In this document: piece by piece, positions 49,767-64,000 of the stretch
How the letters are laid out: each line of letters begins with the position of its first letter
Position numbering within the stretch: position 1 is the first letter of the stretch
Assembly: GCF_900635155.1 (NCBI RefSeq)
Contig: NZ_LR134002.1
Location: forward strand, 930,001 to 994,000
DNA from: Streptococcus sanguinis
GTDB taxonomy: Bacteria > Bacillota > Bacilli > Lactobacillales > Streptococcaceae
Length of the DNA: 64,000 bases
Direction of reading: 5' to 3'
The notes under the pieces: model-generated
Database searches by the model: none
Seen by the model: the letters and a program-made list of their open reading frames with translations, nothing else
Told to the model about the DNA's origin: nothing
Made by a program: the position numbers and the translations under genes

Positions 49767-52700
49767 ATGAAAAAGAAATATTTCCTTGCTTCAGCTACTG
49801 TATTAGCTCTTGGTCTCGGAACTTACGGGCTTATCCAATGGCAATCTCAGCCTCGACCCCAGACCAAAGATAACAAAGTAGCCTATATTGAGGACAAGAC
49901 TTCGGGTGACAAGACGGATAAAAATAAAAATTTGACACCTGACCAAATCAATGATGAAGAAGGTATTGAAGCAGAGCAAATCGTCGTGAAAATCACAGAT
50001 CAGGGCTATGTCACTTCCCATGGAGACCATTATCATTACTTTGACGGGAAGGTTCCTTTTGATGCCATTATCAGCGAAGAGCTGATTATACGAGATCCTA
50101 ACTACACGCTGCAGGAAGCGGATATTGTCAATGAGGTCAAGGATGGCTATATCATCAAGCTAGATGGGAAGTATTATCTCTACCTCAAGGATGCCAAGCA
50201 TACCAGTAATGTCCGCTCGGTAGATGAGATTGCACGGCAGAAGAAGCTGCATAAGACCAAGGAAGAAGGCGATAGTGGCAAATCTTCCACTACAAAATCA
50301 AGCAGAACTCGCGATTTCAGTCAACCTAGCAAGTCCTTAGCTGCGGGAAAGACGGCAGCAGACCTTGCAGGAATTTCCCACCAAGGGCAAGGGGGATATA
50401 AAACGGATGACGGTTATACTTTCAGCCCCTCTGACGTCATCGAGGATACTGGCGATGCTTTTATCGTGCCGCATGGCGGCCATTTTCACTACATTCCCAA
50501 GAGAGACTTGTCGCCGGCAGAATTGGCTGCGGCTCAGAGCTACTGGAATAGCAGGCAGGCCGGCGGACGGGTGAATCAGCCTGTCTACAACAGGACGATT
50601 GCTTCTTCCGATACTTGGAATCAGAATAGTGCTATCAATCAGGGTGGACTAGTCTCAAATCCGACTCCACAGCTGCCAAATCATTCAAAGATTGAGCAGC
50701 CAAGTCCTAGCATAGAGGCAATTCAGCCGAGTCCGTCCAATCCGCTCCAGCCGTCTCAGCCATCCTTGCCAAGTCTGCTGCAGCAACTCTATGCCCTGCC
50801 TCAATCTCAGCGCTATCATGAAGGGGACGGTGTGGTCTTTGACCCACTGAAAATCAGCCGCCGGACAGAAAATGGGGTCGTTATCCCCCACGGAGACCAT
50901 CATCATTTTATTCCTTATGACAAGCTGTCAGACTTGGAAGCGAAGATTGCCCGTTTGATTCCTATTGGATATATTTACCAGCCTCTGGGAGATCCACTGC
51001 AAGCTTTGAAGCCTCAGCTACCGTCACAGCCTGATCACGACCATGGTTTTCATGCGGAGTCTGTCATTGGCAAGGACGACCAAGGCTACATGGTATCGCA
51101 CGGAGATCATGCTCATTACTTTTACAAGAAAGACTTAACTGCTGAACAGATTCAAGCAGCTGAGAAGGTCTTGGCCAAGCAGCAGCCAGCAAAACCATCT
51201 GCAGCAGTCAATGACGCTGAACGCTATTCACGCGATGCCAGCGATGAGGAAAAGATTTCTTATATCTGCCAAACCTATGGCGTTCCCAAAGAAGCGGTTC
51301 GCATCTCAAATGGTTTCTTTGTCTTTAATAACCCTGACCAAGCCTATGATCCGACTCATATCCACCCCTATGCTGTCCGCAAGGAGCATGTCCGCATTCC
51401 CCTGGTAACGGGCAATGCAGAGCTGGACTTCATGAATGAGCTCTACACAACAGCCCTTCGCTCAGGTCTGTCGCCTTACAGTCTGCAAGTTGAAGATGGT
51501 CAGTTTGTCATTCCTCATGGCGACCACAATCACTATATCAAGATCCAGTCCAAGGGCGCTGCAGAAGCCTTGAAAAATCGCCTGTCGCAGATTCAATCTA
51601 AGTATGAGCAAGGCGATTATGATGAGGCTGCTGTTTTGCGAAAAGTAGAAAGCCTAAAAGCAGACAGTCAGCGTCTCTATGCCGATGATCCTCTGATGCA
51701 GCGGCGGATTGAGCTAGCTTTGGGACAGTTTGTGGAAACTATGAAGAAGCTGCCTAGCAACTCAACAGCTGGTTATCTGAACAGTCTGGATAACTTTGAT
51801 AAGCAGTTTATCCATGTGGATCAGACGGTCAAGCCAATTCAAGAGACCGAGCTGGACAAGACCTATCAAGGGCTTTTGGAGAGAATGAACCGACTTGATA
51901 CGGATAGCTATGCATTGAAGAAAGCTGACTTGCTACAGCGTCTGCAAAAGGCATATGCCAGCCAGAATCAAGATGAAATGGCAGAGCTTGGACAATTACT
52001 ATCCGCTTTAGAAGATTATCATGATCGGACAGGCGTCACAGCGGTTGATTACATTCGTTATTTCTACCAAGCTTTGGAGGATGGGCGTTTGAGCCCTGAG
52101 CTGCGCAGAAAAGCAGCTGGGCTGACCTTGACTCTCTATAAGTCTCAAGCCTTTATAGAAGCGACCAATCTCCAGCAGCTTTTCCCCGCTCTCTATCAGA
52201 CTAAAAAAGAGATTGCAGCTGCCCTTGCTAGCGGTCAGCCTTCTCCATCCTCTGAAAAGACAGAGCTGGATCAGGGAGAGCCAGATCAGCCAACCTACAA
52301 AGCCATGATTTATGACTTTTTGAAGGGTATTTATGACGATTTTGGCACCTCGGATGATAGCGAAAAGAGCGCTCAAGCACTTGTCTTCCTTGGAAAAGCG
52401 CAGGAACTACTTGGAGAAGTAAAGGACCAAAACAGCCGGGCAGACTATGCAGCTAGAATCTTGGAATTAGGTAAAGAGTTAAAGAGCAGCAGCTCAGACA
52501 AGCAAACTCTGCTGGCAGCAAGTCAGCAGCTTTTGGACCAGATGAGCCGGACCATTGCTGGGCAAAAGGAAGAGCCGTCTAATACGGAAAATCAGGAAGT
52601 TTATCAGCAGCTTTATAATCTGCTCATGTCTATCCATCAGTATTTGGAAAAGAATCAAGGAAGTGAGCAGCAATACCAGCAGCTGGACCAGCTTTTTGAT

Positions 52701-53309
52701 AAGCTTGGACAGAGAGCTACTGACAAGAAAGAGCTTCTCAAGGAAATCCTGGCCTTCCAGCAGTCACTCGTCCATCCTGAGGGAACAAACGAGTCTGATT
52801 CTCAGCATAGGGACGATGATGGCTATCACTTTAATCTGCAGGATATGGTCGGAGCGGATGAGCAAGGCTATCGGGTAGCTCATCTGGACCACGAGCACTA
52901 TATTTACAAGAAGGACTTGTCAGAAGCTGAGCGCCAAGCAGCAGATGCGTATGCGGTGCAAAAAGGCTTCCTGGAAGCACCGTCTGAACAACCTGCTTCT
53001 GGTCAGCCAGCCAGCAGCAGTGCTCCAGATGCTGCGCAAAATGGCAATCTACCTTCCGAATCTGCCACTGGAGAAGCAGCTCAAAACCAATCTGACAAAC
53101 CATCAGAAGCTTCGACAACTGCAAACCCAGCTGGTCAATCAAGCTTAGCAGCGAGTTTTGGCATGACAGAGGAAGCATTCAACCAGAAATTGCAGGACCT
53201 TTCTCAGCTCTACGGTGTCAGTCCAGAGACTTTTAGCTATAATCCAGCAAGCAGAAGCATCAGCTTTACAGGAGCAGATGGCCAGCTAAAAACTATTCAG
53301 ATTAGCTAA
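49767..53309 (+). CDS. Large polyhistidine triad (Pht) surface protein
   Basis: 1180 residues, longer than typical pneumococcal Pht proteins (~820-1040). N-terminal hydrophobic signal (~1-24) without a clear lipobox. Six HxxHxH triads, each next to a YxxxH(G)DHxH(Y/F) turn: HGDHYH (85-90), HGGHFH, HGDHHH, HGDHAH, HGDHNH and, far C-terminal, HLDHEH in a diverged repeat (DGYHFNLQDMVGADEQGYRVAHLDHEHY). Between triads 5 and 6 is a ~450-residue helical, Q/K/E-rich insert, and the last ~100 residues are S/A/P-rich before a small folded end. No LPXTG. It stores or relays zinc to AdcAII at the surface. Under AdcR control via the upstream boxes. Confidence 0.92.
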   Translation: MKKKYFLASATVLALGLGTYGLIQWQSQPRPQTKDNKVAYIEDKTSGDKTDKNKNLTPDQINDEEGIEAEQIVVKITDQGYVTSHGDHYHYFDGKVPFDAIISEELIIRDPNYTLQEADIVNEVKDGYIIKLDGKYYLYLKDAKHTSNVRSVDEIARQKKLHKTKEEGDSGKSSTTKSSRTRDFSQPSKSLAAGKTAADLAGISHQGQGGYKTDDGYTFSPSDVIEDTGDAFIVPHGGHFHYIPKRDLSPAELAAAQSYWNSRQAGGRVNQPVYNRTIASSDTWNQNSAINQGGLVSNPTPQLPNHSKIEQPSPSIEAIQPSPSNPLQPSQPSLPSLLQQLYALPQSQRYHEGDGVVFDPLKISRRTENGVVIPHGDHHHFIPYDKLSDLEAKIARLIPIGYIYQPLGDPLQALKPQLPSQPDHDHGFHAESVIGKDDQGYMVSHGDHAHYFYKKDLTAEQIQAAEKVLAKQQPAKPSAAVNDAERYSRDASDEEKISYICQTYGVPKEAVRISNGFFVFNNPDQAYDPTHIHPYAVRKEHVRIPLVTGNAELDFMNELYTTALRSGLSPYSLQVEDGQFVIPHGDHNHYIKIQSKGAAEALKNRLSQIQSKYEQGDYDEAAVLRKVESLKADSQRLYADDPLMQRRIELALGQFVETMKKLPSNSTAGYLNSLDNFDKQFIHVDQTVKPIQETELDKTYQGLLERMNRLDTDSYALKKADLLQRLQKAYASQNQDEMAELGQLLSALEDYHDRTGVTAVDYIRYFYQALEDGRLSPELRRKAAGLTLTLYKSQAFIEATNLQQLFPALYQTKKEIAAALASGQPSPSSEKTELDQGEPDQPTYKAMIYDFLKGIYDDFGTSDDSEKSAQALVFLGKAQELLGEVKDQNSRADYAARILELGKELKSSSSDKQTLLAASQQLLDQMSRTIAGQKEEPSNTENQEVYQQLYNLLMSIHQYLEKNQGSEQQYQQLDQLFDKLGQRATDKKELLKEILAFQQSLVHPEGTNESDSQHRDDDGYHFNLQDMVGADEQGYRVAHLDHEHYIYKKDLSEAERQAADAYAVQKGFLEAPSEQPASGQPASSSAPDAAQNGNLPSESATGEAAQNQSDKPSEASTTANPAGQSSLAASFGMTEEAFNQKLQDLSQLYGVSPETFSYNPASRSISFTGADGQLKTIQIS

Positions 53310-53336
53310 GCTTACATTTTGATGTAAAATAACAAT

Positions 53337-53386
53337 AAAACGAATGATGAAGACCAAGCCAAGTCTAAGACCATCATTCGTTTTTG
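53337..53386 (+). terminator. Intrinsic terminator after the pht gene
   Basis: AAAACGAATGATG / CATCATTCGTTTT stem around a 22-base loop, then T-run. Confidence 0.82.
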
Positions 53387-53510
53387 ATTTTCACAACCCT
53401 ATACTTATTTGATTGATATTGTGTTAGAATAAACAGAGAAAATAATAAGGATTGGCAAGGTATGCTTATTATTGGAATGATTTGACCATTGCTTGGAGAG
53501 GAATATTAAA

Positions 53511-54308
53511 ATGAGATTATTCAATTATACATTTGAAGAAAGTCAATCTTTCGTTAATGAAGATATTGTAACTAAAGTAAAGACGAAAGGAAATTATAAA
53601 AGATTCATAGGATTTGCATTGTTTTCAATCTTGCTATATGTTTTATCTTTAGTAGTTCCTGTACTATTAAGCGGTGATACTATATATACTACTCAAAATT
53701 TCAGTTGGTTCAATGTACCTTTAATTCTTATGTTCCTTATGTTTTACATCATTTATATTATTTCCTCTATAAAATATAGAAACAATCCAATGATTTTAAA
53801 ATATATAACTTTTTGTTATATGCTTTTGTTAATATTCATAATGGAAATTTGTTTAACTTTATCAATAGCTTCACGAAGAAATCTTCTAGGAATTCTATCG
53901 GGATTTCTGTTTGTAATTGTCTGCTATTATCTCATGAGAACCGTTCCTAGAAAAATAAGAGAATCTATAGAAAATCGGGAACCATTTGTTCCTTTATCAG
54001 CTTTGTTTACGGAGAAAGTATCTGATGGCCTTATTTTTATAGGGGGAACGGGAATTACTGCTTTTTTAGCACTATTTGATCGTTCGACAGGAAGTGATAC
54101 TAGGGGAGCAATTAATGCTATTGTCACACCTTTTGTGCCTGCGATTCTTTTATTTGCTATATATGTTTTTTCTATTGACATTCTGAGAGGATACTATCTC
54201 TTTAAATATTCCGAACAATATCGGAAACAATTTGGCTACACAGTTAAGGACTGGTATGGAGAAAAATCGAAAGAATATAAGAAAACACAAAATAAGTTCA
54301 CGGAATGA
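53511..54308 (+). CDS. Hypothetical multi-pass membrane protein, AT-rich
   Basis: 265 residues from ATG 53511, set by GGAGAGG (53495-53501); a TTG at 53493 is in frame but inside the ribosome site. About six membrane helices (FIGFALFSILLYVLSLVVPVLL, VPLILMFLMFYIIYIISSI, ITFCYMLLLIFIMEICLTLSI, LLGILSGFLFVIVCYYLM, DGLIFIGGTGITAFLALF, AILLFAIYVFSIDILRGYYLF) and a lysine-rich tail. Clearly more AT-rich than its neighbours pht and pepT, suggesting acquisition by transfer. Family not recognised. An extended -10 TGTTAGAAT at 53422-53430 may drive it. Confidence 0.6.
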   Translation: MRLFNYTFEESQSFVNEDIVTKVKTKGNYKRFIGFALFSILLYVLSLVVPVLLSGDTIYTTQNFSWFNVPLILMFLMFYIIYIISSIKYRNNPMILKYITFCYMLLLIFIMEICLTLSIASRRNLLGILSGFLFVIVCYYLMRTVPRKIRESIENREPFVPLSALFTEKVSDGLIFIGGTGITAFLALFDRSTGSDTRGAINAIVTPFVPAILLFAIYVFSIDILRGYYLFKYSEQYRKQFGYTVKDWYGEKSKEYKKTQNKFTE

Positions 54309-54379
54309 TAGTTGATAAGAAATGTTTAGGAGTAAAGTGTTTAAATTATCCGAATATATTATTCTCTGCAAATCACGAA

Positions 54380-54414
54380 AAACCACAGAAATTCCTCGTG
54401 AATTTCTGTGGTTT
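54380..54414. terminator. Bidirectional terminator before pepT
   Basis: AAACCACAGAAATTC / GAATTTCTGTGGTTT, a perfect 15-bp stem with CTCGT loop and T-runs on both strands. Confidence 0.93.
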
Positions 54415-54419
54415 CGTTT

Positions 54420-55643
54420 TTAATCTTGATAGGAAACAATGCCGATGATGGTATCAACAGCGCGTTCCATGGTTTCTAGGCTGACATATTCGAAGCGGCC
54501 GTGCATGTTTTCGCCGCCGGCAAAGAGGTTAGGGGTCGGGATGCCCATAAAGGAAATTTTAGAGCCATCAGTTCCGCCACGGATAGGCTCGATAATAGGC
54601 TGGATGTCCAGACTTTCCATGACTGCTTTGGCGATATGGATAGGTGTCATGTCCTTTTCAATGACCTGCTTCATGTTGTAATACTGGTCCTTGAGAGTCA
54701 GGATAACGCGCTCGCTGCCCAGCTCTTGGTTCATCTTATCAGCAATGGCCTGCATAGCAGCTTTGCGATTTTCAAAAGCATCAGTCTCAAAGTCACGGAC
54801 AATATAGCTAGCTTGGGCTTCTTCGACAGTCCCGGTCAGGTTCATCAGGTGGTAGAAGCCTTGGTAGCCCTCGGTCTTCTCTGGTCGGTCGGCTTCTGGC
54901 AGCTGGTTGTGGAAGTCAATAGCCAGCTGGAGAGCATTAACCATCTGGTCTTTAGCAGTTCCCGGATGGACATTGCGGCCTTGGAAGGTCAATTCTGCTC
55001 CAGCAGCACTAAAGGTTTCGTACTGGAGTTCTCCTAGAGGGCCGCCATCTACTGTGTAGGCAAAGTCTACATCAAAGTCTTCTGCGTCAAACTTATCAGC
55101 ACCGATACCGATTTCTTCGTCTGGTCCAAAGCCAACTCGGATTTCTCCGTGCTTGATTTCTGGATGGGCAGACAGGTATTCGATAGCCGTCATGATTTCA
55201 GCAATACCTGACTTGTCATCTGCTCCCAAAAGGGTGGTTCCGTCAGTCGTAATTAAGGTTTGACCCTTGTATTTATGGAGACTGGCAAAGTCAGCAGGAT
55301 CTAAGCTAAAGCCGGATTGCCCCAGCGGAATCACACCGCCGTCATAATTCTCAATGACCTGTGGCTGGATATTTTCTGCGTTGAAGTCCGCCGTATCCAT
55401 GTGTGAAATAAAGCCAATTTTGCAGGTAAAGCTAGAGTCATTGGCTGGCAGAGTTCCAATCGCAAAGCCGTTGGGCAGGTAGTATACATTTTCCAAGCCG
55501 ACTCGCTTCATTTCAGGGATGAGAACCTTGTTGGCAAAGTCCACCTGACTCTGGGTGCTGGGTGTAGTAGTAGATGTCTCGTCTGAGCGCGTGTTGACCT
55601 TGACATAGGTCAGAAAACGCTCTAAAAGATTAGGATATTTCAT
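54420..55643 (-). CDS. pepT: Peptidase T (tripeptide aminopeptidase)
   Basis: 407 residues of the M20B family. Metal-ligand motifs: [12 protein letters not shown] (His and the following Asp), [14 protein letters not shown] (bridging Asp), [14 protein letters not shown] (catalytic Glu and metal Glu), [14 protein letters not shown], and the C-terminal His in [13 protein letters not shown]. It removes N-terminal residues from tripeptides with two zinc ions in the cytoplasm. AAGGAG precedes the ATG and an extended -10 TGCTAAAAT lies upstream (minus strand, 55674-55682). Confidence 0.95.
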
Positions 55644-55769
55644 AAATGCTCCTTTTTCATTTCATTTAAGTCTATTTTAGCATATTCAGGAGAGAGTGAG
55701 AAATGTTTTTCGTTTCTTGAGGGCAAAGGTAAAATCTAGCAATTAGTTTTATATCTTGTCAAAATCTGG

Positions 55770-55775
55770 TAAACT
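55770..55775 (+). promoter_or_regulatory. -10 of the SDR-glycosyltransferase cluster
   Basis: Extended element TGGTAAACT (hexamer 55770-55775). Its distance to the ATG (12 bases from first hexamer base) would put transcription start on the ATG. Confidence 0.45.
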
Positions 55776-55781
55776 ATATCT

Positions 55782-56552
55782 ATGCAAATGGAAAAAACAA
55801 TCAGCAAAGCTGTGATTTTGGGTGCTTCGGGAGGTATAGGTCGTCAGCTGGCTAGAGAACTGGCTCAAAGGACAGACCAGCTGGTCTTGGTCGGCAGAGA
55901 TGAAGCTAAGCTCACTCAGTTGCAAGAGGACCTGTCTGGAGTTAGAGCTAAGCTTTCCTGCAGAGTTTTGGATTTGCTGGATGCAGCTGCTGTGGACGAT
56001 TTTGCTCAGCAGCTAGAGGCGGATCTAGTGATTAATTGCTGCGGTCTGGCTAATTTTGGTCCAGCGCTATCTCTTTCAGAAGCAGATGAAAATGCTATCT
56101 GGCAGGTTAATTACCAAGCGGCGGTTCGACTGATGAAGCAGGTTGCGGATCGCAATCGCAAGATAAGGCTAGTCCAACTTTCCTCTCTGGCAGCCCTTTG
56201 TCCCCATCCTTATCTGGCGGCTTACAGCTCTAGCAAGGCCGCTTTGCAGACTTACTGTCTAGCCTTGCAAGAAGAGCTGCGCCTCAAAGGCTCTGAAGTG
56301 AAAGTCTGCCTTTACATACTAGGACCGGTTCAGACTGCTATCTTTCCTCCAGAGCTACAGGATGCTTTAGGTGGAAGTCAGTTGCAGATGAGCCCGGAGA
56401 TAGCAGCACGACACATTATCAGACTGCTTCATCAAGGCCGTTCCTATGCTATAGTTGGCAAGAGATATCGACTACTGGCTTGGCTCATGAAGCTACTTCC
56501 GCAAAGATGGATTATCCGTTTGATTGGTGCTTATCTACGAAAGGGGCTTTAA
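55782..56552 (+). CDS. Short-chain dehydrogenase/reductase
   Basis: 256 residues, classical SDR. Rossmann motif AVILGASGGIGRQLA (TGxxxGxG type), NADP-like LVGRDEAKL, N-N-A-G position reading INCCGLANFG, catalytic Ser in VQLSSLAALC and YxxxK as AAYSSSKAAL. No Shine-Dalgarno sequence is present before ATG 55782 or the second ATG at 55788, and the -10 lies so close that the mRNA may be leaderless. It heads a four-gene coupled cluster with two glycosyltransferases, where it could reduce a sugar or a keto-acyl/lipid intermediate (inference). Confidence 0.85.
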   Translation: MQMEKTISKAVILGASGGIGRQLARELAQRTDQLVLVGRDEAKLTQLQEDLSGVRAKLSCRVLDLLDAAAVDDFAQQLEADLVINCCGLANFGPALSLSEADENAIWQVNYQAAVRLMKQVADRNRKIRLVQLSSLAALCPHPYLAAYSSSKAALQTYCLALQEELRLKGSEVKVCLYILGPVQTAIFPPELQDALGGSQLQMSPEIAARHIIRLLHQGRSYAIVGKRYRLLAWLMKLLPQRWIIRLIGAYLRKGL

Positions 56553-56554
56553 TC

Positions 56555-57697
56555 ATGAAACTTATTTTTTTCCTGCTGACTGCTGCTTACCTGCTTCTCT
56601 TTATCTTGCGTTGGCTCTTGTCTTTGACTTATTTGAAAAAAGGGCAGAGCAGCACATCAGTCTTTCAAGAGGAGCTTTATACGGTGGTTCAGCCCATCCT
56701 ATCTGGTGACCCTCGTTTGGAAAATGATTTATTAGCCAATATCCAGCAGACAGAAGCGGTTGAGTTTTATTGGCTGATTGATCAGTCTGATCCAGAAGCT
56801 CAGCGAGTGGCTGATAAGATTTGTCGAAATCCCTCTTATGCCCAGCGCATTCGCGTTTTTCTCATGGAGGATGTCCCTCAGGGGATTAATCCTAAGAGTT
56901 ATAAGATTGAGCAGATTATAGATGAGCTGACCCGGCCTTATCTGATTGTTCTCGACGACGACAGCGTTATTGATTTTTCAAAAATGGGGGAGTTGACAGA
57001 TTATCTAGGTGAGAATGTTATTTTGACCGGCATTCCCTATAATCAGGAGCGAAGCAATTTCTGGTCCAAGCTAGTGGCAGCTTTTGTCAATGGAAATTCT
57101 TTCATTACCTATTTTACCATGGCAGAAGTCAAAGCTAATCACTCGATTAATGGCATGTTCTACATTCTGCCACTTGAATTGTCTAGAGAGCAGAAGCTTT
57201 TCAGTGCTATTAAAGACTATCTATGTGATGATTTGGCTGTAGCGGATTTTCTGCGCAGCAAGGGAGTGGAGATTATCCAGACGCGGGTGACCTGTAATGT
57301 TCGGACTACTATCAAGGATGCCAAGCAATATTTACTGCAGATGAAGCGTTGGCTGCTTTTTAGCTCTATCTATCTGAAGGAGCACTTGGACTGGAAGGTT
57401 ATTATTTTAATTGCATTGCCTAGTTTCCTGCCCCTTCCTGCCTTGCTCATTAGTTTCTTTCTTGGCTGGCCTTTTGTGCTGCTGGCTTTGCTTTTGCTCT
57501 TGGTCAAGGCGGTTTGGATGCTGGCTTATCGTCGTCACATTCTATCCGGCCGGCCGTATCTGGATGAGGTGTTTTACGAGGTACTGAATGACCTTATCTT
57601 GCCTTGGCTTTTCCTCTATGTCTTGCTTAGTCCGCCTCTGATTAACTGGCGGGGAAGGAAGATTCGAGTGACGGATGGGAAAATCCGCTATGAGTAA
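56555..57697 (+). CDS. Membrane glycosyltransferase, GT2/GT21-like
   Basis: 380 residues from ATG 56555 behind GAAAGGGG, two bases after the SDR stop. One N-terminal helix, a cytosolic GT-A domain and about three C-terminal helices. Motifs: YWLIDQSDPEAQRVADKI (nucleotide region), LIVLDDDSVID (DxD-type), LCDDLAVADFLRSKG (catalytic D/ED region) and QMKRWLLF, the (Q/R)xxRW of processive or lipid-acceptor transferases. This arrangement resembles ceramide-glucosyltransferase-like enzymes (GT21), so a lipid acceptor is likely (inference). The next gene starts eight bases before its stop. Confidence 0.8.
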   Translation: MKLIFFLLTAAYLLLFILRWLLSLTYLKKGQSSTSVFQEELYTVVQPILSGDPRLENDLLANIQQTEAVEFYWLIDQSDPEAQRVADKICRNPSYAQRIRVFLMEDVPQGINPKSYKIEQIIDELTRPYLIVLDDDSVIDFSKMGELTDYLGENVILTGIPYNQERSNFWSKLVAAFVNGNSFITYFTMAEVKANHSINGMFYILPLELSREQKLFSAIKDYLCDDLAVADFLRSKGVEIIQTRVTCNVRTTIKDAKQYLLQMKRWLLFSSIYLKEHLDWKVIILIALPSFLPLPALLISFFLGWPFVLLALLLLLVKAVWMLAYRRHILSGRPYLDEVFYEVLNDLILPWLFLYVLLSPPLINWRGRKIRVTDGKIRYE

Positions 57698-58337
57698 GAT
57701 GAAGCAGTACTTGGCTAAGTTGGATGCTCTGTCGCCAGACCAAACCATGTTGAAATCCAGCAGAGTCTTGCTTTTTCTCAGTGGCAGCAGTCATTTGGAG
57801 AGCGCTTGTCTGACTGCAGGACAGCTTAAGTTTCTTGAACAGATTTGTCCATCGGGTTTCTCAGTGGTTGCTAGTAATTTTCCCTTTAACCAGAGATTTG
57901 AGCATGAGCAACAAACTCAAGTTTCCTTGTTGACAGCTTCCATTTCCAATATTCGTTACTATTGGGATACTCTCTGCAATCTTCGCTTTCAGGAGGCTTT
58001 GCAGCGGCATTTGTCTCCTTTACTAGATGCAGAGGAGGCTGTCATTATCTGCAAGAGCTCGGGACTCAATATACTAACCCAGTGGCTGGAGGATTTGGGT
58101 GAGGAAAATCTGCCGTACAGACTGAGAGTGATTGCGCTGGGGCCTGTTTCACGGAGAGTCCTAAATCACAAGGATATTGACTTGCTGGTCATCAAGGGCA
58201 GGAAGGATATTTACAGCAGATTTTTAGATGGCCATCCAGCTGATGTGATGGTAGATAGCAATCATTTTGATTATGAATACAGGGAAGATGTGAAAGGATT
58301 AGTTCATGACTGGATTAGAAAAAGTGATAAAGATTGA
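57690..58337 (+). CDS. Unannotated protein with alpha/beta-hydrolase-like triad pattern
   Basis: 215 residues, no membrane segment. I do not recognise the family by name. Strand/helix order fits an alpha/beta hydrolase: strand RVLLFLSGS (25-33) with oxyanion-like GSSH, VVASNFPF, then AVIICKSSGLNIL where S123 sits in a nucleophile-elbow-like C-K-S-S-G, strand VIALGP, LLVIKGRKDIYS with D173, and VDSNHFDY with H192, the order Ser-Asp-His of that fold. If right, it is a lipase, esterase or thioesterase-like member of the glycosyltransferase cluster. It overlaps the previous gene by 8 bases and the next by 32, with GGATGGGA before its ATG. Confidence 0.65.
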   Translation: MSKMKQYLAKLDALSPDQTMLKSSRVLLFLSGSSHLESACLTAGQLKFLEQICPSGFSVVASNFPFNQRFEHEQQTQVSLLTASISNIRYYWDTLCNLRFQEALQRHLSPLLDAEEAVIICKSSGLNILTQWLEDLGEENLPYRLRVIALGPVSRRVLNHKDIDLLVIKGRKDIYSRFLDGHPADVMVDSNHFDYEYREDVKGLVHDWIRKSDKD

Positions 58338-59589
58338 TGTGATTAGTGTGCCATTTAGTGGGCATTTGCTGCCTACTTTGACCTTAGTCAAGCCTCTGCT
58401 AACGGATCCGCGTTTTCAGATTCGGGTTATCACTGGCTGTCAAAAGAAAGAGTTAGTAGAGGAAATCGGTTTTGACTGTCTGGCTCTCTTTCCAGAAAGA
58501 CCGACGGTGATGGAGGATATCGCTAATACTCCGCAGCAAAGCAATCCTTTGATTACCTATCAGCAGTTTCGAGCCAATTCTAGACTAATTCCAGAAGTTA
58601 TAGACGAATTAAATCGAATTTGGAAAGAGGGAGATAAACCGGATTTGGTCATAGCGGACTTTGTTGCTTCGCCAGCAGGCTTGATTTCTGATCGCTTTGG
58701 CATTCCCTGGATAACTACGATTCCGAGTCCCGTTGCGATTGAGTGCCGGACGACAACTCCGACCTATTTGGGAGGTTGGAAACCTCATCAGGGGGTCTTG
58801 TACAAATTAAGAGATGCCTTAGGCAGGCAAGCTATTCGTTGTGGAAAGAAAATAGCCTTTGCTTTAGTCCAGAAGAGTTTGGGAGACTATCAAGATTTTA
58901 AACTCTATCGGGAAGACGGCACAGAAGCTATTTATTCGCCATACTCTATCTTGGCTTTAGGCATGAAAGAGCTAGAGTTTCGAGATGATTTTCCTAAGCA
59001 GCTTCGCTGGGTTGGCTACAAATGCTTGTCCTTTGATCGCCTGCCTGCAGCCCATGAGTCTTATTTTGAGACCGATAAGAAGCGGGTTTTAGTGACTTGC
59101 GGTACGCATTTGAAATGGGAGAAGGAGCGAATGGTGGAAAGAGCGAAAAAGCTGAGTCATCTCTACCCAGATTACCTATTTTACGTTACCTTGGGTGAAG
59201 CTAGTGGTCTGGGAAATCCTCCGCGCGAACTGGCGGAAAACTTGCTACTTTTTGATTATCTGCCCTATACCGACATTCTGGATAAGATAGATTTTGCTAT
59301 TCACCACGCAGGAACGGGTATCATGATGGCCTGTATTGAGCATGAGATTCCCAGTCTCATTTTGCCGCAGGATTATGACCAGTTTGACAATGCCGTTCGT
59401 GCTGAGCTTGCCCAGGTGGGGCTGGTTTCTCGCAGAAAGAATGATGCAGAAGTGCTGCGCCTTTTTAAGGAATTGACGGATCGTACGGACTGGTCTCAGT
59501 TGAAAAACCTTGCCCAGCAAAGTAAAGAATATCAGCCTACAGAGATTCTCTATCAAGAGCTAGGGCGGCTGCTTAAGGTTGATTTATAA
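58306..59589 (+). CDS. UDP-glycosyltransferase-type (GT1/GT-B) glycosyltransferase
   Basis: 427 residues, soluble. N-terminal acceptor half opens IDVISVPFSGHLLPTLTLVKPLL with the conserved catalytic-type His, and the C-terminal donor half carries the UGT signature HHAGTGIMMACIEHEIPSLILPQDYDQFDNA. Such MGT-like enzymes glycosylate small lipophilic acceptors such as sterols, macrolides or diacylglycerol. The ATG lies 32 bases inside the upstream gene, behind AAAGGA, so all four cluster genes are coupled. Paired with a membrane GT, an SDR and a hydrolase-like protein it suggests a glycolipid pathway (inference). Confidence 0.85.
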   Translation: MTGLEKVIKIDVISVPFSGHLLPTLTLVKPLLTDPRFQIRVITGCQKKELVEEIGFDCLALFPERPTVMEDIANTPQQSNPLITYQQFRANSRLIPEVIDELNRIWKEGDKPDLVIADFVASPAGLISDRFGIPWITTIPSPVAIECRTTTPTYLGGWKPHQGVLYKLRDALGRQAIRCGKKIAFALVQKSLGDYQDFKLYREDGTEAIYSPYSILALGMKELEFRDDFPKQLRWVGYKCLSFDRLPAAHESYFETDKKRVLVTCGTHLKWEKERMVERAKKLSHLYPDYLFYVTLGEASGLGNPPRELAENLLLFDYLPYTDILDKIDFAIHHAGTGIMMACIEHEIPSLILPQDYDQFDNAVRAELAQVGLVSRRKNDAEVLRLFKELTDRTDWSQLKNLAQQSKEYQPTEILYQELGRLLKVDL

Positions 59590-59654
59590 CTGGAAAACTC
59601 AACAAACCATTAAAGCATACCTCCAATATTAAAATATCTGAATTATTAAATTTC

Positions 59655-59682
59655 CCTATTCTTTTCAAGGAATAGGTTTTTT
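59655..59682 (+). terminator. Intrinsic terminator of the glycosyltransferase cluster
   Basis: CCTATTC / GAATAGG stem, eight-base loop, then TTTTTT. Confidence 0.85.
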
Positions 59683-59781
59683 GGTCTATTCAAGTCTTTT
59701 TTAAGATGTTAAAATGAAAGTGATTACAAACAAGTCATTGGTAAGCCAGCTTGGCTTTCTCGGAGTGACTGAAGAGGAAAG

Positions 59782-60879
59782 ATGATGAAGAAAGCAATTC
59801 TAATGATGACTTTTGGCTCGCCAGAGGAGATTAGCTTTGAGGGAGTGGCTGAATTTTTTACCAATATTCGCCGCGGTGTCAGGCCGCAAGACCATGAAAT
59901 TCAGACCCTCTATGATAACTATGTCCTCATCGGTGGAACGCCTCTGCAGCGTATCAGTCTAGAAGAGGTGGAAAAGGTTCGTCAGCGTTTGGCTGGCGAG
60001 TATGCGGTTTATTTTGCCAATAAATTCTCATGTCCTTTTATTCCAGATGTGATTGAGCAGATGGAAGAGGATGGTATTGAGGATTGTATCTGTTTGATCC
60101 TAGAGCCTCATTTTTCTTACTATTCTGTCATGGGTTATGAGAAGTTTATCCAGAGTGACTCCATCCGCTTTAATATCATTAAGGAATGGTATCAGGAAGA
60201 AGCTATTCTTGGTTATTGGGCAGAGGAACTGAGAAAGATTCTTACAGAAGAGGTTGGAGAAGAGACCTTCAAGATTTTCTTTTCAGCCCACAGTGTGCCT
60301 ATTCTGGCCTTGGATTTCGGAGATCCTTACATTGATCAGATTTATGACAATGCCCGTTTGATTGCTGACAGGTTGGGTTTGACAGAGGAGGATTATCTCA
60401 ATGTTTGGCAGAGTGAGAGTGACATTGGGCTCCCTTGGATCAAACCTGATGTACTGGACTATATGCGCCAGCAAGAAACACATCCGCAGCATTATATTTT
60501 TGTGCCGATTAGCTTTATCAGTGAGCATATAGAGGTTCTTTTTGACAATGACGTGGAGTGCAAGGAACTTTGCGAAGATTTGGGTGTTGCCTATCATAGA
60601 CCGCCTATGCCCAATGCAGATGCCCGTCTAATTGATGCCCTGATTCAAAGTATCCGCCGCCATGAGCATGAACCCTTCAAAGAATGTTTTCCAGAAGAAG
60701 AAACCTTCGATGAATTACAGCCATCGGAGGAGAGTAGCCAGATTCTTGCAGAGGATGCAGAGCTGAAAATGCCAGATTTCGTCAAGAAGCTAATTGAGAA
60801 AAAGGGGCGTGAGAATGTTAAGATGCCGTATTTTGTCAAGAAAATGCTGGAGAAAGCAGGAAAGCTGCCCAAGAGTTGA
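59782..60879 (+). CDS. hemH: Ferrochelatase (coproporphyrin or protoporphyrin type)
   Basis: 365 residues, longer than the ~310 of B. subtilis HemH. Core motifs are present: [10 protein letters not shown] at the N-terminus, catalytic H170 in FFSAHSVP and E251 in [11 protein letters not shown], matching H183 and E264 of the B. subtilis enzyme. Residues ~310-365 are an acidic extension ending in two similar segments, [14 protein letters not shown] and [14 protein letters not shown]. No other haem-pathway gene is nearby, and streptococci generally lack the pathway, so it may act on exogenous porphyrin or in iron handling (inference). GAGGAAAG precedes the ATG. Confidence 0.9.
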
Positions 60880-60930
60880 TTGTTCATATTCGTTGATGAC
60901 TTTATAAGATTATTCTAGAAGGAGAATACC

Positions 60931-61296
60931 GTGAGACTTTGGCACCAAGATTTGATTGAAAAACTTCCGCGCCAGCAGCTTTTAGGCCAGCACCGTGAGT
61001 GTGCGGCCTTACGTGGTCGAGGGTGGGGCAAGCCGCATGCGACGGTCAACTATGTTTTTGAGCATAGTCCTTATCGTCTGTACGCCTATCACCTGCTGAT
61101 TATGGAAGAGATGCAGAAGCGGGGCTATCAGCCGGACACCCTTTGGCTGGATAAGGACTACCGTGGCAAGACCTGCCCACCTTATCAGGACTTGCCAGCT
61201 AAGGAGCTCGAACATCCCATTTATCTGGAGCATGACGCAGCCTATCTGCAAGAATGCATGGAAAATCTTAAGGAGAAAGGAATAGAAATTTTTTGA
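60931..61296 (+). CDS. Pyr_excise/TIGR02328-type protein (T4 endonuclease V-like)
   Basis: 121 residues. The N-terminus MRLWHQDLIEKLPRQQLLGQHRECAALRG and the helix SPYRLYAYHLLIMEEMQKRGYQPDT resemble the T4 endonuclease V arrangement (LADQHLMAEYRE, then LIAECLKRGF), the basis of the Pyr_excise family. In the phage enzyme Thr2 and Glu23 are catalytic; here Glu of the HREC segment could match, while residue 2 is Arg, so glycosylase activity is uncertain. AAGGAG stands before the GTG start (GTGAGACTTTGG), which agrees with the conserved beginning. A terminator follows. Confidence 0.7.
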   Translation: MRLWHQDLIEKLPRQQLLGQHRECAALRGRGWGKPHATVNYVFEHSPYRLYAYHLLIMEEMQKRGYQPDTLWLDKDYRGKTCPPYQDLPAKELEHPIYLEHDAAYLQECMENLKEKGIEIF

Positions 61297-61338
61297 TTTC
61301 CAAGTGCCAAGACGGCATAGTATTAAGGTTATAGAACA

Positions 61339-61368
61339 AAAAAAGAAGAGACATTGCTCTTCTTTTTT
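61339..61368. terminator. Bidirectional terminator
   Basis: AAAAAAGAAGAG / CTCTTCTTTTTT stem with ACATTG loop between convergent genes. Confidence 0.92.
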
Positions 61369-61373
61369 GACTT

Positions 61374-62189
61374 TTATGAATTCAAAATAAACTTCTCAAT
61401 AGCAGTAGCAACCCCATTTTCTTCACAGCTGTCTGTGACGGCATCGGCTAGGCTTTTGACATAGTCTGAAGCATTTCCCATGGCAACACCGAGACCTGCA
61501 TATTCCAGCATCTCGATGTCGTTGTTGGCATCACCGATTGCCATGATTTCCTGAGGATTGATGTCTAATTGTTTAGCTAATCGCTCTAGGGCAAAGGCTT
61601 TGGTCACACCGGCTGGCATGGCCTCGTAAATGACTGGCTGGGAGCGAACGCCGCTGAAACGCTGGCAGATTTCTTGGCCAAAGTCAGCTTCAAAAGCATC
61701 TACCTGCTCTTGGCTGCCTAAAAACATAGCTTGAAACATTCTGTATTGACCACTGCAAGCCTCTTCTAGGCTAATCTCGGTTGGAATAGTAAAGACCAAG
61801 CTAGCATCATTCACGACATAGGAACTGGCTTTTTCTCCGACGACGAAATAATGCTCTTCATCAAAGAGAGTCAGCTGGACAGGGCTATTTTCAGACAGGC
61901 TGTAGAGATAGCGAATATCCTGACCGCTCAGCTCTTGCCAGTCCACCAGACTCCAGTCGCTGGTTTGATGAGTAGCACAGCCATTATCCACGATGACATA
62001 TTCGTTTTCTTGTGCCAGGCCCAGCTTGTCATAATAAGGCTTGACGCCAACCAAGGGACGACCTGTGCAAAGAACCAATTTGACTCCTTTTTCAATAGCT
62101 TGGCGAATAGCCTCAATGTGAGCCTGAGGAATTTCTTTTTTGCTGTTGAGCAAGGTGCCGTCCATATCAAGTGCAAGAATTTTAATCAT
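61374..62189 (-). CDS. Cof-type HAD family phosphatase
   Basis: 271 residues. HAD motif I LALDMDGTLLNSKKEIP, motif II LVLCTGRPL, motif III lysine in GVTKAFALERLAKQL and motif IV MAIGDANNDIEMLEYAG are all complete, with the C2b cap between motifs II and III typical of Cof/YidA proteins, which dephosphorylate sugar phosphates and flavin or PLP precursors. Substrate unknown. TTGGAGACACTTT precedes the ATG. Extended -10 TGCTATACT lies upstream on the minus strand (62218-62226), divergent from lepA. Confidence 0.92.
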   Translation of the reverse strand: MIKILALDMDGTLLNSKKEIPQAHIEAIRQAIEKGVKLVLCTGRPLVGVKPYYDKLGLAQENEYVIVDNGCATHQTSDWSLVDWQELSGQDIRYLYSLSENSPVQLTLFDEEHYFVVGEKASSYVVNDASLVFTIPTEISLEEACSGQYRMFQAMFLGSQEQVDAFEADFGQEICQRFSGVRSQPVIYEAMPAGVTKAFALERLAKQLDINPQEIMAIGDANNDIEMLEYAGLGVAMGNASDYVKSLADAVTDSCEENGVATAIEKFILNS

Positions 62190-62273
62190 AAAGTGTCTCC
62201 AAAATTATTCTCTGACTAGTATAGCATAATTTATAGAGAAAGTCCGAGTCTATAGGAAAAATCACTGGTCTTG

Positions 62274-62282
62274 TGTTATAAT
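62274..62282 (+). promoter_or_regulatory. lepA extended -10 promoter
   Basis: TGTTATAAT (hexamer 62277-62282), 29 bases before the ATG. Confidence 0.6.
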
Positions 62283-62311
62283 AAATAGAATACCCTAAAA
62301 GGATGAGAAAA

Positions 62312-64000
62312 ATGAATTTAGAAGATTTGAAAAAACGTCAGGAGAAGATCCGCAATTTCTCCATCATTGCTCACATTGACCACGGGAAATCAACCTTGGC
62401 TGACCGGATTTTGGAGGCGACTGAGACGGTTTCCAGTCGGGAAATGCAGGCCCAACTCTTGGACAGCATGGACTTGGAGCGGGAGCGCGGCATCACCATT
62501 AAGCTCAATGCTATCGAGCTCAATTATACCGCCAAGGACGGTGAAACCTATATCTTCCACTTGATTGACACGCCGGGACACGTGGACTTTACCTATGAGG
62601 TATCGCGGTCGTTAGCGGCCTGCGAAGGGGCTATTTTGGTTGTGGATGCGGCTCAGGGGATTGAGGCTCAGACCTTGGCTAATGTTTATCTAGCGCTGGA
62701 TAATGACTTGGAAATCCTGCCAGTTATTAATAAAATTGACCTGCCAGCTGCAGATCCAGAGCGGGTGCGGGCAGAGATTGAAGATGTGATTGGACTGGAT
62801 GCTAGCGAAGCCGTATTGGCTTCTGCCAAGTCTGGTATCGGAATTGAAGAAATTTTAGAGCAGATAGTAGAAAAAGTTCCAGCTCCGACTGGAAGTGTAG
62901 AAGCACCGCTCAAAGCCTTGATTTTTGACTCGGTCTATGATGCCTATCGTGGTGTAATCCTTCAAGTGCGGGTTATGGACGGTGTGGTCAAGCCGGGAGA
63001 TACCATTCAGCTCATGAGTAATGGTAAGACCTTTGACGTGACTGAGGTCGGCATCTTTACTCCCAAGGCTGTTGGACGTGATTTCCTAGCAACAGGGGAT
63101 GTTGGTTATATCGCAGCCTCTATCAAGACGGTACAGGATACCCGAGTCGGAGACACAGTAACCTTGGCGGACAATCCAGCTGGGGAGCCATTAGCCGGCT
63201 ATAAGCAGATGAATCCTATGGTTTTCGCTGGTCTCTATCCTATCGAGTCCAATAAATACAATGACCTGCGTGAGGCGCTTGAAAAGCTCCAGCTAAACGA
63301 CGCCAGTCTGCAGTTTGAACCAGAAACATCACAGGCATTAGGATTTGGTTTCCGTTGTGGTTTCCTGGGTTTGCTGCACATGGATGTCATTCAGGAGCGC
63401 TTGGAGCGTGAGTTCAATATTGATTTGATTATGACGGCGCCATCTGTTATCTATAAGGTCAATATGACGGATGGTGCCTCTCTGGATGTGTCCAATCCGA
63501 GCGAGTTTCCGGATCCGACTAAGATTGATTCCATTGAAGAGCCTTATGTCAAGGCGCAGATTATGGTGCCCCAGGAATTTGTCGGAGCGGTGATGGAGTT
63601 GGCTCAGCGCAAGCGTGGTGACTTTGTGACCATGGACTATATCGATGATAATCGGGTCAATGTCATCTATCAAATCCCACTTGCTGAAATCGTCTTTGAC
63701 TTCTTTGACAAGCTCAAGTCCTCTACTCGTGGCTATGCTAGCTTTGACTATGAAATTTCTGAGTATCGCTCGTCCAAGCTGGTGAAGATGGATATTCTCC
63801 TCAATGGCGACAAGGTTGATGCTCTCAGCTTTATCGTTCACAAGGAATTTGCCTATGAGCGTGGTAAGCTGATTGTAGACAAGCTCAAGAAAATCATTCC
63901 TCGTCAGCAGTTTGAAGTACCCATTCAAGCCGCTATCGGACAGAAAATCGTGGCTCGGACAGACATCAAAGCCCTGCGCAAGAATGTCTTGGCCAAGTGT
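62312..64000 (+). CDS. lepA: Elongation factor 4 (LepA), N-terminal 563 codons
   Basis: Begins [34 protein letters not shown] and stays open to the window edge; the full protein is about 607 residues, so only the extreme C-terminus is missing. GTPase motifs: AHIDHGKST (G1), RGITIK (G2), DTPGH (G3), NKIDLP (G4), SAK (G5). Domain II follows, then [26 protein letters not shown] and the LepA-specific C-terminal domain ([31 protein letters not shown]). It acts on the ribosome during back-translocation or initiation. AAAAGGATGAG provides the ribosome site. Confidence 0.97.

Follow-up and report, generated by a model that had tools for sequence, protein, structure and literature searches.

The four-gene locus described here, module A, lies in a stretch of 64,000 nucleotides (the window) that spans positions 930001–994000 of the 2.36-Mb single-contig genome of Streptococcus sanguinis. 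Module A encodes, in order, a short-chain dehydrogenase/reductase (SDR), a membrane glycosyltransferase of the GT21 type, a protein that belongs to no named family (protein X) and a UDP-glycosyltransferase (UGT) of the GT1/MGT (macrolide glycosyltransferase) type, with spacings of +2 bases between the SDR and GT21 genes, −8 bases between the GT21 and X genes, and −32 bases between the X and UGT genes (Table 1). This arrangement, coordinates and strand included, had been reported in an earlier note made from the letters of the window, and is confirmed here, as are the family assignments given there for the SDR, the GT21-like enzyme and the UGT (matches to PF00106, PF13506 and PF06722, respectively). 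Four further genes, module B, lie outside the window, and the conclusion that modules A and B belong together is well supported by the comparisons set out below.

The SDR has the motifs GASGGIG at residue 14 and YSSSK at residue 148, and its top-scoring NCBIfam model is that of mycolate reductase (NF040690), which at 103.8 bits does not reach the cut-off of 380. The GT21 enzyme exceeds the PF13506 gathering score of 21.7, contains the motifs DDD (residues 134–136), CDD (residues 224–226) and QMKRW (residues 262–266), and has hydrophobic segments near residues 3–21, 282–300 and 299–317. Its DDD, DD and QxxRW motifs and its PF13506 score are shared with HpnI and other GT21 enzymes, but its 44.4 bits against the HpnI model TIGR03472 fall short of the cut-off of 310. 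The UGT scores 62.2 bits against TIGR01426, which represents the MGT macrolide glycosyltransferase subfamily and has a cut-off of 260.

Table 1. Features of the module A locus (window positions) and the S. sanguinis module B genes.
Feature	Position	Strand	Details
SDR oxidoreductase, 256 amino acids, first gene of module A	55782–56552	+	PF00106, 98.2 bits, 5.7e-28
GT21-type membrane glycosyltransferase, 380 amino acids	56555–57697	+	PF13506 Glyco_transf_21, 76.1 bits, 3e-21
Protein X, 215 amino acids from ATG at 57690	57690–58337	+	Predicted serine alpha/beta-hydrolase fold; no named family
UGT of GT1/MGT type, 427 amino acids	58306–59589	+	PF06722, 39.9 bits (cut-off 31.7), 5.4e-10
Intrinsic-terminator-like hairpin 3′ of UGT	59655–59676	+	9 pairs, 3 of them G-C; TTTTTT tail
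Stretch 5′ of the SDR start codon; possible promoter, unconfirmed	55733–55781	+	Almost invariant in nine aligned S. sanguinis loci
Module B of S. sanguinis: KAS, ligase, MBL, OleD-like	L085:7482–11588 (contig ~2317.5–2321.6 kb; outside the window)	−	

Protein X, whose longest open reading frame begins at 57675, is by its predicted structure a member of the alpha/beta-hydrolase superfamily, with nucleophile, acid and histidine in the expected places. The structure model (predicted local distance difference test score, pLDDT, of 86) has an alpha/beta-hydrolase fold in which Ser123, within the sequence C-K-S-S-G, occupies an elbow between strand 116–122 and helix 125–136, Asp173 follows strand 163–170, and His192 follows strand 186–188. 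All three residues are shared, without exception, by the 40 relatives that were aligned. The earlier note had singled out the same residues as those of an alpha/beta hydrolase, and the different fold that it had named as evidence against this view was not obtained. Its remark that X has no obvious family name likewise stands, as no Pfam or NCBIfam family matches X at an E value of 0.1. A Pfam scan of the 40 aligned relatives gave scattered matches only, none of them to an alpha/beta-hydrolase family, and the commonest was HEM4 (six members, best 6.9e-4). Because sequence searches of the PDB with X also gave no credible relative (best E values 0.78 and 9.4e-5 (de novo designed protein)), the assignment of the fold depends on the model. 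X may be a hydrolase or an acyltransferase. It differs from Bacillus subtilis lipase A and small esterases in its sequence (at most 17% identity in the LipA rows among the matches listed), and in having neither a hydrophobic segment nor any PDB relative by sequence. A protein family that has no Pfam or NCBIfam match can now be assigned a fold and a likely set of catalytic residues.

The genes of module A are a conserved unit, beyond chance. X is present in 28 of the 284 Streptococcus genomes searched, and the order SDR–GT21–X–UGT is kept in every one of the 28, with identities as low as ~42% (L035, L036), which agrees with the earlier description of the four genes as coupled; these loci are ~3.6 kb long, and the SDR gene is visible only in part. 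The 8-base overlap of the GT21 and X genes recurs in L021, L023 and L047, and X occurs in eight S. sanguinis contigs at 87–93% identity. Matches to X were found in 16 of 295 genomes of the same order, comprising 11 streptococci, four clear cases from other genera, and one weak case (G519; 51 residues, 7e-4) that was left out as a cluster. A sample of 398 Bacillota genomes gave two matches, both in streptococci, while phage records gave no match to X and plasmid records gave a single GT21 match, in a record of Fusobacterium vincentii (L037). Individual loci show irregularities: the X gene of L033 (G148) has an in-frame stop, beside GT21 and UGT matches of full length, and the GT21 match of L025 (G205) is divided between two frames, one covering 79% and the other 21% of the query, possibly by a frameshift or a sequencing error.

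Module B consists of genes for an OleD-like reductase, a metallo-hydrolase of the metallo-beta-lactamase (MBL) fold, a ligase related to F390 synthetases, and a ketoacyl synthase III (KAS). Module A is followed by module B in one direction, as a run of eight genes, in three Lactobacillales outside Streptococcus (L045, L046 and L047, of G285, G373 and G516), and all eight genes also lie together in one direction in two divergent streptococci (L086 and L087, of G017 and G139). X of L047 is 75% identical to an X named as that of an uncultured Enterococcus. In F. vincentii (L037), SDR, GT21 and X are joined to the four genes of module B, making seven of the eight. Judged from gene content, the predicted eight-gene pathway is also present in Enterococcus-like, Carnobacterium and Fusobacterium genomes. 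The F. vincentii record (NZ_CP084075.1, 2.1 Mb) is titled plasmid pSB055A; its size suggests a chromosome. The distance between module B and X in S. sanguinis is 1.33 Mb along the contig. The earlier view of the four genes as a pathway therefore holds for their coupling but not for their completeness, given that a second module adjoins them in L037, L045, L046, L047, L086 and L087 and lies far off here.

Of the module B enzymes in S. sanguinis, the ligase passes the TIGR02304 cut-off of 251.9 with 548.2 bits, the OleD-like reductase scores 209.9 bits against NF042422, below the cut-off of 580, and the MBL enzyme matches N-acyl homoserine lactone (AHL) lactonases weakly (78.9 bits against a cut-off of 390). 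In alignments, the KAS retains Cys, His and Asn and has no catalytic Glu, and its best PDB matches are MxnB (147.9 bits) and CorB (136.7 bits), ahead of the best FabH entry (113.5 bits) and of the OleA entries, which are lower. In all inspected module B loci the genes for the ligase and the KAS lie with those for the reductase and the MBL enzyme, and a polyketide synthase was not seen in any of the loci.

The distribution of the two modules is correlated. The TIGR02304 ligase is encoded by 75 of the 284 Streptococcus genomes, namely by 26 of the 28 with X versus 49 of the 256 without X (Fisher p 5e-15), and removal of 11 S. sanguinis-group genomes leaves 15 of 17 with X versus 49 of 256 without (p 8e-9), counts and p values that ignore the shared ancestry of genomes that are not independent. 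The UGT provides a stronger link between the modules than this co-occurrence. A full-length UGT of this clade (matches spanning at most 1,100 bases were not counted) is likewise found in 75 of the 284 genomes: 73 have the ligase, two (G063 and G281) have X only, and none has neither. It stands beside X in 28 of 28 genomes and no more than 6 kb from the ligase in 57 of the 75, directly before the OleD gene in L089, L090, L095, L096 and L117; in G053 (L119) the UGT follows the KAS gene and has an identity of only 28% to the query. In the 26 genomes that have both modules, a UGT accompanies each module in 11 (one shared UGT in G017 and G139) and module A only in 12, which form the S. sanguinis group; the remaining three (G006, G179, G220) have a full-length UGT at module A and a fragment at module B. 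The simplest reading of this distribution is that a single UGT can act for both modules, and hence that they form one pathway. Twelve both-module genomes remain when the S. sanguinis group and the fused loci are set aside. In 11 of these the modules share a contig, at a distance of 64–108 kb; the twelfth, G142, has them on separate contigs. At a threshold of 1e-3, any UGT match is found in 88 genomes, and the 13 beyond the 75 are G012, G213, G069 and ten with matches at 7.6e-8 or worse. The fragments in G012 (C10:2868–3176) and G213 (C49:11634–11975), at 35–39% identity and with neither ligase nor X in these genomes, are possibly remnants of a lost pathway.

Besides the shared ancestry just mentioned, several observations weigh against a single pathway. 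Module A occurs without ligase or second KAS in G063 and G281, where the sole match to the module B KAS is 24–25% identical and probably represents housekeeping FabH. The ligase occurs without X in 49 genomes, 46 of which have a full-length UGT within 6 kb of it, G163 has module B with no UGT match, and G422 has X with neither GT21 nor a second KAS. The F. vincentii record has no UGT match anywhere. Separate occurrence of the genes, which the earlier note had expected to tell against its proposal, is thus seen in part. Loss of the B-side UGT beside an intact A-side UGT is found in only three genomes, and loss of the B-type UGT needs no module A, because this gene is also broken in G069, which lacks the module. 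A carrier protein, transporter or regulator shared by the loci was not seen. Correlations between the distances of the eight families (SDR in 7 of 12 genomes, being cut by the short loci) are 0.84–1.00, but were calculated without a control and do not separate joint function from joint descent. In G422, a Lactobacillales genome of 1.4 Mb, the orphan X (L044:9401–10048) looks intact and has groEL nearby.

In sequence distance, the GT21, KAS and OleD proteins of S. sanguinis are somewhat closer to the copies in G285, G373 and G516 than to those in G017 and G139; for X and MBL no such difference is evident. Transfer of the genes between lineages is possible. Since these genes also lie together in other Lactobacillales and, apart from the UGT, in Fusobacterium, they may pass from one taxon to another as a set.

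Module A is rather probably the glycosylation and finishing half of an eight-enzyme pathway in which module B makes the aglycone. Gene content and order, the modelled hydrolase fold of X, the conserved motifs, the split into modules and their co-occurrence are the observations from which we infer every reaction, the order of the reactions, the sugars and a lipid-like product, the 'glycolipid' of the earlier note. Taken with the KAS and the adenylating ligase, the ketone reductase and the hydrolase of the MBL fold suggest that an acyl-derived hydroxy compound arises by activation, condensation and reduction and is then released, and the aglycone would be acyl- or polyketide-derived. The PaaK-like adenylating ligase would activate a carboxylic acid, which the stand-alone KAS III would condense with a further chain, acyl or beta-ketoacyl; reduction of the ketone would fall to the OleD-like reductase, and the MBL-fold enzyme may hydrolyse a thioester or lactone for release. 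The UGT would then put a first sugar on the hydroxylated lipophilic product and the membrane GT21 enzyme would add a second. The SDR may adjust an oxo or hydroxy group, and X may transfer or remove an acyl group.

Parts of this scheme have counterparts in described systems. According to the passages of PMC5352749 considered here, the RhlA–RhlB–RhlC rhamnolipid system of Pseudomonas likewise combines an alpha/beta-hydrolase-type protein with two sugar transfers by separate glycosyltransferases, and RhlA is an alpha/beta-hydrolase-superfamily protein with an active Ser102; the description in these passages differs from the present loci in having no counterpart of module B (ligase, KAS III, MBL, OleD-like). 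At class level, module A also has two glycosyltransferases (GT21 and UGT), one of them of the GT1/UGT type. Membership of the RhlABC system was considered and is not claimed, and X is likened to RhlA by enzyme class only. RhlG is reportedly not required for rhamnolipid synthesis, according to the title of one paper. The loci resemble the OleABCD olefin pathway in having a KAS III that adjoins an OleD-like reductase and, where the modules are fused, also a protein of the alpha/beta-hydrolase fold. However, the module B KAS has Ile at the position of the catalytic Glu of OleA, the ligase is of the TIGR02304 type, and X has the invariant elbow Ser123, whereas the nucleophile of OleB is Asp. Membership of OleABCD is not claimed, on account of the missing Glu, the OleD score below its cut-off, and Ser in place of the OleB-type Asp. 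MxnB and CorB, the closest PDB relatives of the KAS, align with it at Cys, His and Asn, and the Ile stands opposite Val94 of CorB, a position that is the catalytic Glu105 in PpyS and the counterpart of OleA Glu117, as given in the passages of PMC4578411 considered here. They belong to myxopyronin and corallopyronin biosynthesis (same passages of PMC4578411), but the present loci differ in showing no polyketide synthase, and chain joining by the KAS is putative.

A different account, which appears unlikely, is that module A stands by itself and makes an envelope glycolipid on an ordinary lipid acceptor, for instance diacylglycerol or a polyprenyl carrier, and that module B is an independent pathway with a common host range. 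The genomes with module A and no ligase or second KAS (G063, G281) and the unlinked modules of S. sanguinis fit this account, as does the GT21 family, known for membrane glycolipids, although the HpnI score is far under its cut-off. It is opposed by the joined loci in six genomes, the seven-gene Fusobacterium locus included, and by the finding that, in 284 genomes, the full-length UGT of the clade never occurs without ligase or X. Slightly less likely again is a joint pathway with a non-lipid product, namely a small aromatic, pyrone or polyketide glycoside serving as signal, pigment or antibiotic. The relationship of the ligase to PaaK and F390 synthetases, which act on aromatic or coenzyme acids, points in this direction, together with the proximity of the KAS to the alpha-pyrone-forming MxnB and CorB and the macrolide-glycosyltransferase type of the UGT (TIGR01426, below cut-off). 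Conversely, the GT21 membrane enzyme, the OleD-like reductase and the lipase-like fold of X point, at class level only, to long-chain substrates, and the substrates of OleD are long 2-alkyl chains.

That the genes build no product and instead inactivate foreign compounds, with the UGT glycosylating and X and the MBL enzyme hydrolysing them, is very improbable. The UGT does weakly match models of macrolide-inactivating glycosyltransferases (41 bits against 700), and the MBL enzyme weakly matches AHL lactonases, but both scores are far under the curated cut-offs; ketoacyl synthase and adenylating ligase are moreover biosynthetic enzymes, and they accompany the reductase and MBL genes in each module B locus inspected.

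Joint action of the two modules would give S. sanguinis, which colonises teeth early, a complete but split pathway for a glycosylated lipid-like metabolite. The enzyme families are known, and their combination is without description among the open-access literature matches listed, whose titles describe no such cluster. A bolder proposal, which we regard as doubtful, is that the product represents an undescribed natural-product class of oral streptococci, Enterococcus-like bacteria, Carnobacterium and fusobacteria, namely a lipid carrying two sugars, with an aglycone made by a stand-alone chain-fusing ketosynthase without a polyketide synthase, and that it could underlie a biosurfactant of Streptococcus mitis, a glycolipid described as 'rhamnolipid-like' (van Hoogmoed, 2000, cited from a passage of PMC4253709). 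The passages of PMC11052126 on the lipidomics of oral bacteria contain nothing that can be linked to the cluster, and those of PMC11186162 deal with the effects of added biosurfactants on oral bacteria. For the question of the origin of a streptococcal glycolipid surfactant, the two modules offer eight specific candidate genes, in a species of which laboratory strains exist.

Of the promoter and terminator that the earlier note had ascribed to module A as its own, the terminator was borne out and the promoter was not. The stem and T-run of the hairpin 3′ of the UGT gene are accompanied by retention of the region in eight of nine aligned S. sanguinis loci, the exception being L006, and the region scanned contains six terminator-like sites versus 4.5 (sd 2.2) in shuffled sequences. 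L006 and L018, which by their coordinates come from one S. sanguinis genome, are without hemH, the gene that comes after the cluster in the other S. sanguinis loci, and the gene beyond hemH directly follows the UGT gene. A sigma-70 consensus scan of 55400–60000 gave no site on the plus strand and four sites, all on the minus strand (shuffles 6.2, sd 2.3). Within the conserved stretch 5′ of the SDR start codon, TGGTAAACT resembles, by eye, an extended −10 element. Its conservation at 55755–55790 and the lack, by eye, of an obvious ribosome-binding site raise the possibility of a leaderless transcript for the SDR.

Module A is flanked by pepT on the 5′ side (minus strand) and by hemH on the 3′ side (plus strand). 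An Rfam scan of 53000–62500 at gathering scores gave no match, and no tRNA genes were found in the window. Also upstream of module A are a 271-residue open reading frame at 53493–54308, which is hydrophobic by eye and has no Pfam match, and, at 49767–53309, the gene for a 1180-residue histidine triad protein of the pneumococcal type (TIGR01363, 488 bits).

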